A DNA stretch of 64,000 nucleotides, taken from NCBI RefSeq assembly GCF_000725125.1, contig NZ_JFCB01000009.1, positions 62,001 through 126,000 on the forward strand, given 5' to 3'. Shown piece by piece: positions 36,129-64,000 of this stretch (position 1 is its first letter; every line of letters begins with the position of its first letter). A program made the position numbers and the translations under genes. The DNA is from Streptomyces toyocaensis. GTDB lineage: Bacteria > Actinomycetota > Actinomycetes > Streptomycetales > Streptomycetaceae. Below the pieces are notes generated by a model that saw only the letters and a list, made by a program, of their open reading frames with translations, had not been told where the DNA came from and searched no databases.

Positions 36129-36140
36129 CTACGCGCGTAG
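36129..36140. promoter_or_regulatory. CTACGCGCGTAG operator, site 1 (PNP)
   Basis: Perfect 12-bp palindrome centred 31 bp before the PNP start codon, in the -35 region of the likely promoter (TACCCT at 36153-36158, 7 nt before GTG). Identical to sites at 40175, 51567 and 63409, all before nucleoside genes. Confidence 0.75.
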
Positions 36141-57579: not shown

Positions 57580-58863
57580 TCAGGCGATACGTTCCCGCAC
57601 GACCGGGGTGGCCGTGAAGTCCGTGCCCTGCGGGACGACGTCGTACGAGCCCTCCACCGACCGGAGCGCGTACTCGAAGCGTTCCGGGGTGTCCGTGTGC
57701 AGGGTGAGGAGGGGCTGGCCCTCGGTCACCCGGTCGCCGGGCTTGGCGTGGAGTTCGACGCCCGCACCCGCCTGCACCGGGTCCTCCTTGCGGGCGCGGC
57801 CCGCGCCGAGGCGCCAGGCGGCGACGCCGATGCCGTAGGCGTCCAGGCGGGTCAGCACGCCCGAGGCCGGAGCGTGCACCACGTGCTGCTCGCGGGCCAC
57901 CGGCAGCTCCGCGTCCGGGTCACCGCCCTGGGCCGCGATCATGCGGCGCCAGACGTCCATCGCGGAGCCGTCGGCGAGGGCCTTCGCCGGGTCGGCGTCC
58001 TTCAGGCCGGCCGCGTCGAGCATCTCGCGGGCGAGGGCGAGGGTCAGCTCGACGACGTCCGCCGGGCCGCCGCCCGCCAGGACCTCGACGGACTCGCGGA
58101 CCTCGAGCGCGTTGCCCGCGGTCAGGCCGAGCGGGGTGGACATGTCGGTCAGGAGGGCGACCGTCCGCACTCCGGAGTCGGTGCCCAGACCGACCATGGT
58201 GCGGGCCAGTTCGCGGGCGTCGTCGAGGGTCTTCATGAAGGCGCCCGTGCCGACCTTCACGTCCAGGACCAGGGACCCGGTGCCCTCCGCGATCTTCTTC
58301 GACATGATCGAGGAGGCGATCAGCGGGATCGCCTCGACCGTGCCGGTCACGTCGCGGAGCGCGTAGAGCTTCTTGTCGGCGGGGGCCAGCCCGTCACCGG
58401 CCGCGCAGATCACCGCGCCGGTGTTGTCCAGCACGGACAGCATCTCCTCGTTGGAGAGCAGGGCGCGCCAGCCGGGGATGGACTCCAGCTTGTCGAGCGT
58501 GCCGCCGGTGTGGCCGAGGCCGCGGCCGGAGAGCTGCGGGACGGCCGCGCCGCAGGCCGCGACGAGGGGGGCCAGCGGGAGGGTGATCTTGTCGCCGACG
58601 CCTCCGGTGGAGTGCTTGTCGGCGGTGGGGCGGGACAGGGACGAGAAGTCCATGCGTTCGCCGGATGCGATCATCGCGGCCGTCCAGCGGGCGATCTCGC
58701 TCCGGTTCATGCCGTTGAGCAGGATCGCCATGGCGAGGGCCGACATCTGCTCGTCGGCCACCTCCCCGCGGGTGTACGCGTCGATCACCCAGTCGATCTG
58801 CTCGTCGCTGAGTTCGCCGCGGTCCCGCTTGGTGCGGATGACGGAGATGGCGTCCATGGCCAT
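57580..58863 (-). CDS. deoA: Thymidine/pyrimidine nucleoside phosphorylase
   Basis: 427 aa from ATG 58863 (GGAAGGA upstream); ATG 58857 is two codons shorter. It splits thymidine, deoxyuridine and perhaps uridine with phosphate into base and (deoxy)ribose-1-phosphate. Signature SGRGLGHTGGTLDKLESIPG near 115-134, phosphate-binding KHSTGGVGDK near 83-92. Last gene of the ABC-cdd-deoA unit. A 13-bp inverted repeat occupies the 92-bp gap before it. Confidence 0.95.
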   Translation of the reverse strand: MAMDAISVIRTKRDRGELSDEQIDWVIDAYTRGEVADEQMSALAMAILLNGMNRSEIARWTAAMIASGERMDFSSLSRPTADKHSTGGVGDKITLPLAPLVAACGAAVPQLSGRGLGHTGGTLDKLESIPGWRALLSNEEMLSVLDNTGAVICAAGDGLAPADKKLYALRDVTGTVEAIPLIASSIMSKKIAEGTGSLVLDVKVGTGAFMKTLDDARELARTMVGLGTDSGVRTVALLTDMSTPLGLTAGNALEVRESVEVLAGGGPADVVELTLALAREMLDAAGLKDADPAKALADGSAMDVWRRMIAAQGGDPDAELPVAREQHVVHAPASGVLTRLDAYGIGVAAWRLGAGRARKEDPVQAGAGVELHAKPGDRVTEGQPLLTLHTDTPERFEYALRSVEGSYDVVPQGTDFTATPVVRERIA

Positions 58864-58955: not shown

Positions 58956-59354
58956 TTACTTGGTGAGGTGCTGCGGGCCGAAGGCCTGGGGCAGCATCTC
59001 CGACAGCGGCAGGATTCCCGCCGGGGTCTCCAGCAGCAGTCCGGACCCGCCGAACTCGTACAGCAGCTGGCGGCAACGGCCGCACGGGACGAGGATCTCG
59101 CCCCGGCCGTCCACACAGGTGAAGTGGGTGAGCCGGCCACCGCCGGTGCGGTGCAGCTCCGAGACCATGCCGCACTCGGCGCACAGGCCGAGACCGTACG
59201 ACGCGTTCTCGACGTTGCAGCCGGAGACCGTGCGCCCGTCGTCGACCAGGGCCGCGACGCCCACCGGGTACCCCGAGTAGGGGACGTAGGCGTGGGTCAT
59301 GGCCTCCCGGGCGACGGCGCGCAGCGCCTCCCAGTCGACGTCGGCCGTGGTCAC
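58956..59354 (-). CDS. cdd: Cytidine deaminase
   Basis: 132 aa, homotetrameric type. It converts cytidine and deoxycytidine to uridine and deoxyuridine. Zinc site: NASYGLGLCAECG (C58 and catalytic Glu60) and VPCGRCRQ (near 90-97). GTG 59354 overlaps the permease stop by 4 bp (GTGA), so it is translationally coupled. It supplies substrate for the following deoA. Confidence 0.95.
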   Translation of the reverse strand: MTTADVDWEALRAVAREAMTHAYVPYSGYPVGVAALVDDGRTVSGCNVENASYGLGLCAECGMVSELHRTGGGRLTHFTCVDGRGEILVPCGRCRQLLYEFGGSGLLLETPAGILPLSEMLPQAFGPQHLTK

Positions 59355-60625
59355 TTGCCCTGCCCCTTCCGGTAGGGCATGCCGTTGGCCCTGGGCATGC
59401 GCAGCCGCTGGGCGGAGAGGGCGAGGACGACGAGGGTGATGACGTACGGCGTGGCGGCGACGACCTGGTTGGGGACCTCGTTGGTGCCGGCGTACCAGGC
59501 GAAGACGAGGGCGCCGACGACCAGGGTGATCACCGCGTGGACGTACTTCTTGCGGATGACGAGGTAGATCGCGCCGATGAGCAGCAGCAGGGCGCCGAGC
59601 AGCAGCAGGGCGTGCACGTTGGCGGAGCCGCCGCGCAGGTTGAGGCTGTCGGTGTAGCCGAAGAGGCCGGCGCCGATGGCGAGACCGCCCGGCATCCAGT
59701 TGCCGAAGATCATCGCGGCGAGGCCGATGAAGCCGCGTCCGCTGACCTGCCCCTCCAGGTAGAACGGGTTGGCCACGATGGAGAGGAACACACCGCCGAG
59801 GCCGGCCAGGGCGCCGGAGATGATCACCGCGAGGTACTTGTACTTGTAGACGTTGACGCCGAGGGACTCGGCGGCGATCGGGTTCTCACCGCAGGAGCGC
59901 AGCCGCAGGCCGAACGGGGTGCGCCACAGGATCCACCAGGTGGCGGGGACGAGCGCGACGGCGATCAGGGTCAGCCAGGAGACGTTGGTGACCAGTCCGC
60001 CCAGCAGGCCCGCGATGTCGGAGACGAAGAACCAGCCCTTGTCGTTGAGTTCCCTCAGGGCGTCGGACAGTCCGGGCACGGTGAAGTGACCGAGGGACTC
60101 GACCGGCGGGGACTGCTTGGCGGAGCCGCCCTGGTGGCCCACGAAGGCCAGCGGGGCGAGGTAGCGGGTGGCGCCGAGGGCGAGGATGTTGATCGCCACA
60201 CCGGAGACGATGTGGTTGACGTTGAAGGTGACGGTGACGATCGCGTGCAGCAGGCCGCCGATCGCGCCGCCGATGAGGCCGACCAGGACGCCGGTCCACG
60301 GACCCCACTGGAATCCGGCCCAGGCGCCGAACCAGGTGCCCAGGATCATCATGCCTTCGAGGCCGATGTTGACGACGCCCGCGCGCTCGGCCCACAGGCC
60401 GCCGAGGCCGGCGAGGCCGATCGGGACGGCGAGCTGGAGTGCGGTCGACATCTGGCTGACGTTGGTGATGCCGTCGGCACCCGTGATCAGGCGCACGATC
60501 GAGGTCAGGGCCAGGGCTCCGGCGATGACCAGGAGCAGGACGGGCCAGGACAGACGGCGGCCGGCCTTCGGTGCGTGCTCCAGCGACGGCTGGTTGACGT
60601 CGGTCGCTGTGGTCGGTGCGGTCAT
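59351..60625 (-). CDS. Nucleoside ABC transporter permease 2
   Basis: 424 aa from ATG 60625, GGAGG 10 nt upstream, overlapping the first permease gene by 4 bp (ATGA). Branched-chain/BPD-type permease with helices from about residue 28. GLWAERAGVVNIGLEGMMILGTWFG near 75-100 and the cytoplasmic coupling region RLRSCGENPIAAESLGVNVYKYKY near 248-271 match BMP-family nucleoside transporter permeases. The C-terminal 60 residues contain two extra helices. Confidence 0.93.
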   Translation of the reverse strand: MTAPTTATDVNQPSLEHAPKAGRRLSWPVLLLVIAGALALTSIVRLITGADGITNVSQMSTALQLAVPIGLAGLGGLWAERAGVVNIGLEGMMILGTWFGAWAGFQWGPWTGVLVGLIGGAIGGLLHAIVTVTFNVNHIVSGVAINILALGATRYLAPLAFVGHQGGSAKQSPPVESLGHFTVPGLSDALRELNDKGWFFVSDIAGLLGGLVTNVSWLTLIAVALVPATWWILWRTPFGLRLRSCGENPIAAESLGVNVYKYKYLAVIISGALAGLGGVFLSIVANPFYLEGQVSGRGFIGLAAMIFGNWMPGGLAIGAGLFGYTDSLNLRGGSANVHALLLLGALLLLIGAIYLVIRKKYVHAVITLVVGALVFAWYAGTNEVPNQVVAATPYVITLVVLALSAQRLRMPRANGMPYRKGQGK

Positions 60626-61755
60626 CGGCCGGCCACCTCCTTCGTGGTGTTGTTGTCGGCGTCCGGGCCTCCGAGAACGTGGCCCGCGGCGAGCTCGGCG
60701 CCGACCCGGCGCTGCTGGCGGCGCAGACCCCATTCGCGGACGGCCTCGTAGGAGACCACGACGGAGAGGACGATCAGGCCCTGCATGATGACCGCGATCT
60801 CCTTGTCGTAGCCGTGGAAGTCCAGCTCGGGCGAGGCCTTGTCGAGCCAGGCCCACAGGAGGGCGGCGAAGGCGATGCCGACCGGGCTGTTGCGGCCGAG
60901 CAGGGCGATGCCGATGCCGAGGAAGCCGATGCCGGTGGGGAAGCTGAGGTTGTAGGTGTGGGCGTCGCCGAGCAGGATCGGCAGGCCCGCGAGACCGGCG
61001 ACGGCGCCGGAGAGCAGCATGGCGGTGAGCACCATGCGCTTGGGGTCGACGCCGCTGGCCGCTGCGGCGGACTCCGAGGCGCCGGAGGCGCGCAGGTCGA
61101 AGCCGAAGCGGGTGCGGTTCAGGACGATCCAGTAGCCGATGCCGAGGAGGACGGCGAGGATCACCAGGCCGTAGATCTCGCCGGCCGCGCCCATGTCGAT
61201 GCCGGGGATCCAGCCGGACTCGTACATCTCGCCGGTGGTGTTGTTGTTGCCGACCTTCACGCCGAAGACCGTGGGCAGCCACATGTAGCCGATGACGGAC
61301 GTCGCGATCGCGTTGAGCATGATCGTCGCGACGACCTCGCTGACGCCCCGGGTGACCTTGAGGACGCCGGCGACGCCGGCCCAGAAGGCGCCGGTGAACA
61401 CGGCGGTGAGGAGCAGCAGCGGGATCTGCAGGACGGCCGGCAGGTTCATGTGGGCGCCGACGATGGCGGCCATCATGGCGCCGAGCTGGTACTGGCCGTC
61501 GACGCCGATGTTGAACAGGTTCATCCGGAAGCCGATGGCCACCGCGAGGGCCGCGATGTAGTACATCGAGGCCTGGTTGATGATCAGCACCTGGATGTCG
61601 GAGAAACCGGCCTGCTCGAACATCAGGGCGAACGGCTCGACCGGGTTCTTGCCGGAGGCGAGCAGCACGACGGCGCTCAGCACGAAGGCCACGGCGAGCG
61701 CGATGACCGGTCCGGCCACCGCGAGGAGCACACGCTCCTTGTCGAACTTCTTCAT
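60622..61755 (-). CDS. Nucleoside ABC transporter permease 1
   Basis: 377 aa. ATG 61755 overlaps the ATPase stop by one base (TGATG). Helices from about residue 10. FRMNLFNIGVDGQYQLGAMMAA near 76-97 and the coupling loop FDLRASGASESAAAASGVDPKRM near 230-252 identify the BMP-associated permease family (YufP/NupP type). Forms the channel with permease 2. Confidence 0.93.
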   Translation of the reverse strand: MKKFDKERVLLAVAGPVIALAVAFVLSAVVLLASGKNPVEPFALMFEQAGFSDIQVLIINQASMYYIAALAVAIGFRMNLFNIGVDGQYQLGAMMAAIVGAHMNLPAVLQIPLLLLTAVFTGAFWAGVAGVLKVTRGVSEVVATIMLNAIATSVIGYMWLPTVFGVKVGNNNTTGEMYESGWIPGIDMGAAGEIYGLVILAVLLGIGYWIVLNRTRFGFDLRASGASESAAAASGVDPKRMVLTAMLLSGAVAGLAGLPILLGDAHTYNLSFPTGIGFLGIGIALLGRNSPVGIAFAALLWAWLDKASPELDFHGYDKEIAVIMQGLIVLSVVVSYEAVREWGLRRQQRRVGAELAAGHVLGGPDADNNTTKEVAGR

Positions 61756-63332
61756 CAGCGGGCCTCGTCTTCCTCGGACTCGGGGGACTGGGACCCGTCG
61801 GCCGAGGTCTCGGGGTTGTCTTCCTGTTCGAGGTGTCCCGAGGCGGCGCCGGTCATGGCGGTGCCCAGGGCCTCGGGGGTGATGGTGGCCGGGTCGGCGT
61901 CCGCGACCAGCTTGCCGTCGTAGATCACCCGGAGGGTGTCGGACAGGCCGATCAGCTCGTCCAGGTCGGCGGAGATCAGCAGCACGGCCAGGCCCTCGCG
62001 GCGGGCCTCGCGGATGTGGTCCCAGATGGCGGCCTGGGCGCCGACGTCCACACCGCGGGTGGGGTGGGCGGCGATCAGGAAGCGCGGCTTGTGGGTCATC
62101 TCGCGCCCGACGATCAGCTTCTGCTGGTTGCCGCCGGAGAGGGAGGCCGCGGTGACGTCGATGCCGGGGGTGCGGACGTCGTACTCCTCGACGATCCGGC
62201 GGGTGTCCTCCTGGGCGGCCTTCGGGTCCAGCCAGACGCCCTTGGCGTTGGGCCGTTCGGTGACGTGGCCCAGGATGCGGTTCTCCCAGAGGGGGGCCTC
62301 CAGGAGCAGGCCGTGGCGGTGCCGGTCCTCGGGGATGTAGCCGATGCCCTGCTCGCGGCGCCTGCGGGTGGGCCAGGCGGTGATCTCCCGGTCCGCCAGC
62401 CGGATGACACCGGAATCGGCGGACTTCAGTCCGATGAGGGCGTCGACCAGTTCGGTCTGGCCGTTGCCCTCGACGCCCGCGATGCCGAGGACCTCGCCCT
62501 CGTGGATGGTGAAGGTGATGTCGTCGAGCAGGACCTTGCCGCCGGCGGCCGTCAGCCGCAGCTTGTCGACGGTGATGACGGGACGGTCGGTGACCGTGGA
62601 CTCGGCGGTCTCGGGGGTGGGCAGTTCGCTGCCAACCATCATCTCGGCGAGCTGGCGCGCGGTGGTTTCGGCGGGGACGGCGGTGCCGACGGTCGTACCG
62701 CGGCGGATGACGGTGATGTCGTCGGCCACGGAGAGGACCTCGCCCAGCTTGTGGGAGATGAAGATGACCGACAGGCCCTCGGCCTTCAGCTCGCGCAGGT
62801 TGTCGAAGAGCGCGTCGACCTCCTGCGGCACGAGGACCGCGGTGGGCTCGTCGAGGATCAGCGTGGTGGCGCCGCGGTAGAGGACCTTGAGGATCTCCAC
62901 GCGCTGGCGTGCGGCGACGCCGAGTTCCTCGACCAGGACGTCGGGGCGGACGCCGAGGCCGTAGCGCTCGGAGAGCTCCTTGATCCTTCGGCGGGCCTTG
63001 GCGCCGATGCCGTGGAGCTTCTCGCTGCCGAGGACGACGTTCTCGAGGACGGTGAGGTTGTCGGCGAGCATGAAGTGCTGGTGCACCATGCCGATGCCGA
63101 GCGCGATGGCGTCGGCGGGCGACGAGAAGCTCACCGTCTCGCCGCCGACCGCGATGGTGCCCTCGTCCGGCTTCTGCATGCCGTAGAGGATCTTCATCAG
63201 GGTCGACTTGCCGGCGCCGTTCTCACCGACGAGGGCGTGGACGGTGCCCTTGCGGACGGTGAGGTGGATGTCGTGGTTGGCGACGACGCCGGGGAAGCGC
63301 TTGGTGATCCCGGCGAGTTCGACGGCGGTCAC
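61755..63332 (-). CDS. Nucleoside ABC transporter ATPase (two nucleotide-binding domains)
   Basis: 525 aa counted from GTG 63332, which has no ribosome site. An in-frame ATC at 63380 has AGGAGA exactly 7 nt upstream and may be the true start (16 more residues). The first domain has GENGAGKST (Walker A), [16 protein letters not shown] and LILDEPT. The second has [10 protein letters not shown] without the P-loop lysine, LSGGNQQK and [11 protein letters not shown], the usual asymmetric layout of sugar/nucleoside importers such as YufO. The acidic tail (about 500-525) is unstructured. Confidence 0.92.
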
Positions 63333-63377
63333 CGAACTGTTGACCGCCGCTCCGGCCGGAGGGCTGCTGGACGCGTT

Positions 63378-63393
63378 GATGACGCACTCTCCT
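63378..63393 (-). promoter_or_regulatory. Ribosome site AGGAGA placed for an ATC start
   Basis: AGGAGA (63393-63388), 7 nt, then ATC (63380-63378) in frame with the ATPase gene. No ATG, GTG or TTG lies at that position. It decides between a rare ATC start and the unsupported GTG at 63332. Confidence 0.5.
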
Positions 63394-63408: not shown

Positions 63409-63420
63409 CTACGCGCGTAG
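63409..63420. promoter_or_regulatory. CTACGCGCGTAG operator, site 4 (nucleoside ABC operon)
   Basis: Perfect palindrome between the BMP gene and the ATPase gene, centred 34 bp before the possible ATC start. Same sequence as sites 1-3. It implies an internal promoter for ATPase-permeases-cdd-deoA. I could not place a convincing -10 after it. Confidence 0.75.
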
Positions 63421-63458: not shown

Positions 63459-63493
63459 ACGGGGTACGGAGAGCCCGGCTCTCCGTACCCCGT
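63459..63493 (-). terminator. Terminator or attenuator between BMP gene and ATPase gene
   Basis: Perfect 16-bp stem (63459-63474 against 63478-63493) with a 3-nt loop. Together with the next hairpin it should stop most transcripts leaving the binding-protein gene, giving the usual excess of binding protein over transporter. Confidence 0.8.
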
Positions 63494-63613: not shown

Positions 63614-64000
63614 TCAGCTGGACTTGACCTTGATCTCGCCGCTGATGATCTTCTCCTTGGCCGTCTTGATGGCTTCCTGGAGCTCGGCGTCGTCCGCGAA
63701 CTTCGGGTTGGAGTTCGACAGGCTCACCTCACCCGTCTTCAGATCGCCCTTGACGATACCGGTCGCGGGCTTGCCGTCCTCCACCGACTTCGCCAGGTTG
63801 TACACCGCCTTGGCGACGTCCTTCATCGCCGAGGTGAGGATCGAGTCCTTGTACTTGGCGAGCGCTTCCTGCTGGTACTGGTCGGAGTCGACGCCGATCG
63901 CCCACACCTTGTTGGCGGCGGCGGCCTCGATGACGCCCTGGCCGGACAGGCCGGCGGCCGCGTACACGACGTCGGCCTTCTTCTCGATCTGGCCCTCGGC
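63614..64000 (-). CDS. BMP-family nucleoside-binding lipoprotein, C-terminal part (start outside window)
   Basis: The last 129 codons of the gene; the frame is open to the right edge. The visible part has VVYAAAGLSGQGVIEAAAANKVWAIGVDSDQ (BMP/PnrA fold, ligand-binding region) and ends in a Lys-rich KIISGEIKVKSS. In this family the protein is a lipid-anchored receptor that hands purine or pyrimidine nucleosides to the ABC permeases encoded next to it. Confidence 0.92.
   Translation of the reverse strand, partial: AEGQIEKKADVVYAAAGLSGQGVIEAAAANKVWAIGVDSDQYQQEALAKYKDSILTSAMKDVAKAVYNLAKSVEDGKPATGIVKGDLKTGEVSLSNSNPKFADDAELQEAIKTAKEKIISGEIKVKSS

Follow-up and report, generated by a model that had tools for sequence, protein, structure and literature searches.

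AUC is a codon that ribosomes ordinarily refuse as a start, and to our knowledge few bacterial genes with a conserved start codon other than AUG, GUG, or UUG have been documented. According to the published sigR study, noncanonical start codons characterized by experiment are very few (PMC5472188). Two genes in that study are of direct concern here. The infC gene starts with ATT in Escherichia coli and with ATC in Streptomyces (PMC5472188). GTC is the start codon of sigR in Streptomyces coelicolor, where extra IF3 represses the gene and infC fidelity mutants show derepression (PMC5472188). The stoichiometry of the operon was upset when the GTC of sigR was changed to a canonical codon, and the same study reports no evidence of GTC use in the sigR homologues of other actinobacterial genera (PMC5472188). 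Rare AUC, AUU, and AUA starts have been treated by Gvozdjak and Samanta (2020), as cited in PMC9094748, and their work may include the ATPase gene that is described below. A search of titles and abstracts in the open-licence literature found no report of an AUC start for this transporter ATPase gene.

The window is the whole stretch of Streptomyces toyocaensis DNA that was analysed (64,000 nucleotides with a G+C of 72%). The genes of an ABC importer and the genes that adjoin them are located near the end of the window and are listed below.

63614..64000, minus strand: BMP-family substrate-binding protein (PF02608), C-terminal part, which runs past the window edge
63461..63491, minus strand: perfect terminator-like hairpin with 14-bp arms and a 3-nt loop, read from the sequence, between the binding-protein gene and the ATPase gene
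61755..63380, minus strand: ATP-binding protein of a BMP-type ABC importer, 541 aa from the ATC (525 aa from GTG 63332), with PF00005 in two stretches
60622..61755, minus strand: permease 1 (PF02653), whose ATG overlaps the ATPase stop (TGATG)
59351..60625, minus strand: permease 2 (PF02653), whose ATG overlaps the permease 1 stop (ATGA)
58956..59354, minus strand: cytidine deaminase (NF004064 above cut-off), whose GTG overlaps the permease 2 stop (GTGA)
57580..58857, minus strand: thymidine / pyrimidine-nucleoside phosphorylase (NF004490 and TIGR02644 above cut-offs)

Pfam places the gene set of a BMP importer in this one cluster: the BMP binding protein, the two PF02653 permeases, and the ATPase with its two ABC domains. 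The best NCBIfam match of the ATPase is NF047930 (putative B6 ABC transporter ATPase) with 465.3 bits, which is under the cut-off of 670. The best named matches are those of Streptomyces pseudogriseolus (94% protein identity) and S. werraensis (93%). A hairpin-like repeat with changed arms was seen by eye at the corresponding place in one other locus (L101). The importer probably takes up nucleosides, judging from its neighbours, namely the cytidine deaminase, the thymidine phosphorylase, and a palindrome shared with other genes that is described further below. The corresponding BMP binding protein of S. coelicolor is presumably SCO4885, which is described as a putative nucleoside-binding lipoprotein (PMC6593405).

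The features around the start of the ATPase gene are as follows.

63388..63393, minus strand: Shine-Dalgarno AGGAGA with a 7-nt spacer to the ATC, from the sequence and the spacing rule
63378..63380, minus strand: ATC (AUC) start of the ATPase gene, from comparative conservation
63330..63332, minus strand: in-frame GTG of the ORF list that a canonical-only gene caller picks, present in 36 of the 81 Streptomyces sequences

AGGAGA occupies positions 63393-63388 of the minus strand and is followed by a spacer of 7 nt (63387-63381) and then by the ATC (63380-63378). The first canonical codon in the ATPase frame is the GTG at 63332-63330, which is 48 nt (16 codons) past the ATC. The preliminary description of this DNA had placed AGGAGA 7 nt ahead of an in-frame ATC at 63380, with an open frame from there to a GTG 16 codons on that lacks a ribosome site. 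This layout is exact in the minus-strand sequence: the frame is open from the ATC to GTG 63332, and no ribosome site was found at that GTG by the spacing rule (SD score of 0). The upstream end of the frame is TAG 63428. No canonical codon is present between this TAG and the ATC, which rules out a start further upstream in the window. The RNA around the start folds with z = -1.53 relative to shuffled sequences, 16 of 200 of which are at least as stable, and this was not counted as evidence.

Two sets of orthologous loci from the same family were compared. The Streptomyces set consists of 80 named loci and the window (81 sequences). The further Streptomycetaceae set consists of 68 loci that were read of 165 matched genomes, with the window's own genome excluded, and it spans 11 genera besides the genus of the window. 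Both sets may share species, hence the numbers of distinct sequences are also given. ATC follows the ribosome site in all 81 Streptomyces sequences, and the spacing from Shine-Dalgarno to ATC is 7 nt in 76 of them, 5 nt in four, and 6 nt in one. The further set exhibits ATC in 66 of its 68 loci, ATA in one locus (L089), and no site in one locus (L146). Among the 66 loci with ATC, 63 have the ATC alone, and the remaining three (L123, L129, and L132) also have a stray canonical codon at least 90 nt further upstream. Neither ATG nor GTG was found at the ATC position among the 149 Streptomycetaceae sequences (81 and 68). The locus without AUC (L146 from G044) belongs to a Streptomyces, and it has a weak ribosome site followed by GTC and then by an in-frame GTG.

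The preliminary description had proposed either the use of a rare ATC start or the loss of an ancestral ATG through a single base change. The orthologue comparison supports the former (81/81 Streptomyces sequences and 66/68 further Streptomycetaceae loci), and the latter was abandoned because the position holds neither ATG nor GTG in the 81 sequences or in the 67 further loci (of 68) with a site. It is likewise hardly credible that an ATG was lost recently in the window strain, with damage to the operon, or that the ATC is a sequencing error. ATC and ATG do differ by one base, and ATG is present at this place in some other families, but the same ATC is read from many assemblies in both sets, and the orthologues therefore refute a recent loss.

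The ATC is also the point from which the reading frame is kept. A frame-blind search for ATC, ATT, or ATA 5-9 nt after GGAG found a site in all 74 distinct Streptomyces sequences (named loci and window) and in 64 of the 65 distinct ones from the other Streptomycetaceae. All of these sites (138/138) are in the ATPase frame, and their distance to the ITKRFPG motif is 39-96 nt. The spacer between Shine-Dalgarno and ATC shifts by 1 or 2 nt whereas the distance from ATC to the domain changes only in threes, which indicates that the reading frame begins at the ATC. At 0.06 bits, the entropy of the ATC codon is the lowest of 20 codon positions in 131 distinct rows from which L146, the locus without the site, was left out. 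The eleven codons after it have entropies of 0.99-3.86 bits and the eight codons before it have entropies of 0.29-3.47 bits. Isoleucine is nearly always encoded by ATC in these genomes, so little can be concluded from an unchanging third base by itself.

The conserved frame bears on the explanation that the true start is GTG 63332, or an equivalent codon near the domain, and that the ATC stretch is an untranslated leader. GTG is a standard start codon, and some canonical in-frame codon is present between the ATC and the domain in 48 of the 81 Streptomyces sequences and in 31 of the 68 other Streptomycetaceae loci. In eight orthologues from other families (L197 and L230-L236), a GTG preceded by a ribosome site is found 27 nt ahead of the domain motif, which implies that a protein made from GTG 63332 would be complete. 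However, the equivalent of GTG 63332 is absent in 45 of the 81 Streptomyces sequences, and GTG 63332 itself has no ribosome site. No ATG, GTG, or TTG is present from the upstream in-frame stop to the ITKRFPG motif in 26 of the 81 sequences, in 23 of the 68 further loci, and in 10 of 86 loci from other families, and the supposed leader keeps the reading frame in every one of the 138 distinct sequences. Orthologues whose frame starts only at this GTG were looked for, and its presence in just 36 of the 81 sequences speaks against it. A start at GTG 63332 in place of the ATC is thus improbable, and GTG 63332 as the sole start was rejected on its conservation and its missing ribosome site. Where this GTG exists, it may be used as a second start. 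Upstream of the ATC, an in-frame canonical codon within 45 nt is present in four of the 81 and four of the 68 loci; these codons have no ribosome site and are not conserved.

Another possibility considered is that initiation takes place at GTG 63387-63385, which is out of frame, and that a programmed frameshift then brings the ribosome into the ATPase frame. A GTG is present at -7 to -5 from the ATC in 75 of the 81 and 62 of the 68 loci, and an ATG is present there in one more. This GTG, however, lies nearly on the ribosome site, one base past AGGAG-A, and it is not general in the other families that have ATC or ATT. It is missing in L043, L044, L054, L064, L067, L119, L123, L129, L130, and L132. 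All ten of these family loci keep the ATC, on which ground the frameshift was rejected as very improbable. The start at the AUC itself is strongly supported by these comparisons of sequence. Shine-Dalgarno spacing with frame, conservation across species, and orthologues without a usable canonical start, by which near-cognate AUC or AUU starts were judged, were all found at this gene.

A positive and a negative control were read in the same manner. The infC gene exhibits ATC after Shine-Dalgarno in 30/30 loci of the class (the best 30 loci, with 57 of 60 genomes matched), and infC of the window's own genome (L238, C8) has its ATC start after CGAGGAGG, with the start region CGAGGAGGATCCATCAGC. 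A paralogous Streptomyces ATPase that resembles those of sugar importers has a canonical codon with a ribosome site in all 23 readable loci of 24. A scan of 464 kb of the own genome and the infC locus (267 ORFs) found two cases of ATC after Shine-Dalgarno without a well-placed canonical start against 3.6 expected, which is a weak background estimate since the ORF filter missed both the window ATPase and infC. ATC after Shine-Dalgarno is no commoner than chance in one genome, and it is therefore conservation and not the single genome that decides. A TetR-like gene (L244:1945-2538, minus strand; C1:102538) was tried as another conserved ATT start. It has ATT after GGAGG in the own genome, ATC in its nearest relative (L340), and ATG or GTG in 13 other orthologues of the 20 loci returned. 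The orthologue starts led to its rejection, and, unlike the conserved start of the ATPase, this weak ATT start is recent.

The comparison was extended to 86 loci from 17 other families of the class, which were obtained from 85 of 86 matched genomes and, for one locus, from a search at the level of the order. The family and genus labels used here (f17, f38, f40, and g59) are codes. By rule, 24 loci have ATC and 7 have ATT; a canonical codon accompanied by a ribosome site is present in 39, and 9 show none of these signals. Seven loci have both signals, of which L173, L185, L192, and L222 were read from the sequence as ATC and L205, L209, and L234 as canonical. ATC or ATT after a ribosome site is thus present in 35 of the 86 loci and in 10 of the 17 families. 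Family f17 is mixed (12 ATG, 1 TTG, 4 ATC, 3 ATT, and 2 with both). Several families use ATG or GTG, which means that AUC is not essential for the ATPase gene.

Among the 35 AUC or AUU loci of other families, 11 have no canonical codon in frame and 15 have one within 45 nt upstream, with or without a ribosome site. In L171, L173, and L178 (f17) and in L191 (f38), an in-frame ATG stands 15 nt before the ATC and immediately ahead of the ribosome site (ATGGAGGAG...), and this ATG could be an alternative or double start. Dropping these four loci leaves 31 of 86 AUC or AUU loci and does not change the number of families. In the alignment of L148 (ATT) and L151 (ATG), both from genus g59, the bases around the codon correspond one to one and ATT and ATG share a column, which indicates that the AUY position is where the gene ordinarily starts. 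ATT makes up 7 of the 35 codons at the start and 5 of 137 internal ATC or ATT codons in the same loci (Fisher p 0.003), a test that ignores shared ancestry and is weakened by three of the seven ATT loci being from one genus. Such an excess of ATT fits a start codon rather than an isoleucine codon in G+C-rich genomes.

In two loci of family f40 (L159 and L167), GAGGAGG is followed at start spacing by CTG, and the rule found no canonical codon in a better place; this may represent a CUG start. Locus L330 (G052) matches residues 3-268 of the query only, and its ATC after Shine-Dalgarno is intact; a frameshift or an assembly error is possible there. Outside the class but in the same phylum, 17 of 20 loci were readable, and in 12 of them a ribosome site precedes a canonical codon (L326 is doubtful). 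No convincing AUY start was found among these 17 loci. Among the other five, L332 shows an ATC behind a weak site, followed two codons later by an ATG.

The transcription of the operon appears to be subject to another signal, which lies upstream of the Shine-Dalgarno.

63409..63420: palindrome CTACGCGCGTAG, probable operator, which occurs in 5 exact copies across the 7.34-Mb genome, including 4 within the window

The copies of CTACGCGCGTAG (12 bp each) are at 36129, 40175, 51567, and 63409 of the window and at L338:1501 (C31:62333), and the reversed control of the palindrome has 1 copy in the genome against 5. These sites stand at the starts of the genes for purine-nucleoside phosphorylase, deoC, and adenosine deaminase, of the nucleoside ABC operon, and of a second adenosine deaminase gene, where the site is a few bases inside the start. 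An exact CTACGCGCGTAG is present upstream of the orthologous ATPase in 67 of the 81 Streptomyces sequences and in 41 of the 68 other Streptomycetaceae loci. The palindrome is a probable operator of a nucleoside-catabolism regulon. Transcription of the nucleoside ABC operon is then probably controlled separately from the AUC start.

The ATPase very likely starts at the conserved AUC, and this start is probably repressed by IF3 in the manner of infC and sigR and probably throttles a translationally coupled operon. We infer the IF3 control and the coupling by analogy with the known systems and from the layout of the genes. The initiator fMet-tRNA would presumably decode AUC with a mismatch at the third base after a good Shine-Dalgarno. 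Selection would maintain the weak AUC for a low and IF3-sensitive rate of initiation, as for infC (AUU/AUC) and sigR (GUC). The starts of permease 1, permease 2, and the cytidine deaminase overlap the preceding stops, so they are probably coupled and the AUC would meter the whole membrane module. The terminator-like hairpin (63491-63461) would separate the binding-protein gene, which is translated on its own, from the ATPase. The AUC start probably sets the level of the membrane module relative to this upstream binding protein. Importers need more binding protein than transporter, and a separate binding-protein gene with a hairpin behind it fits this need. The preliminary description had expected lower transporter synthesis from a lost ATG. 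Lower synthesis from the AUC is plausible as a conserved feature rather than as damage.

The AUC start could also be neutral, that is, frozen and inefficient without regulatory meaning. An importer of low abundance may tolerate weak initiation, and several families have ATG or GTG without obvious cost. This explanation is unlikely, although it carries more weight than the alternative starts, because ATG is one mutation away and yet neither ATG nor GTG stands there in the 149 Streptomycetaceae sequences, while most codons after the ATC vary. The conserved weak start thus suggests a built-in brake on the transporter.

The AUC or AUU start might be ancient within Actinomycetes, with nucleoside uptake as a third member of the IF3 regulon beside infC and sigR, with the balance of IF3 and ribosomes tuning nucleoside salvage, and with the ATG and GTG lineages as those that released this control; we regard this broader proposal as tentative and somewhat doubtful. 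If the AUC start is true, a metabolic transporter, and not a translation or sigma factor, would use such a start throughout a family and again in 10 other families of the class. Gene callers limited to ATG, GTG, and TTG must then misplace the N-terminus of the ATPase in every species that uses AUC. One orthologous start site that occurs as ATC, ATT, ATA, ATG, and GTG also provides a comparative system for the cost and use of a weak start. Its signature, a ribosome site followed by an in-frame ATC with the frame kept only downstream, is simple and can be scanned for genome-wide.

The importer resembles the BMP-family (PnrA-like) nucleoside ABC importers in its list of parts and in the adjoining cytidine deaminase and thymidine phosphorylase. 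The nearest named system in NCBIfam is the putative B6 transporter, and the system in the window scores below its cut-offs. The readable orthologues in other classes of the phylum start with ATG or GTG, unlike the ATPase of the window. AUC and AUU starts are of a known kind, and the transporter ATPase appears to be a new case that is unusual as a transporter and in its class-wide reach. The infC gene has a Shine-Dalgarno followed by a conserved ATC start as the ATPase does. However, infC is autoregulated by its own product whereas the transporter ATPase would be a downstream target, and the ATC of infC is kept in 30/30 class loci whereas the start of the ATPase varies among ATC, ATT, ATG, and GTG in the class. 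The sigR gene is similar to the ATPase in that its start is non-canonical, follows a strong ribosome site, is kept across Streptomyces, and affects the stoichiometry of its operon. The repression of sigR by IF3 was demonstrated experimentally (PMC5472188), whereas for the ATPase we infer it. The start of sigR is GTC, for which the same study gives no evidence in the homologues of other actinobacterial genera, whereas the start of the ATPase is ATC, and AUC or AUU is found at this start in 10 other families.
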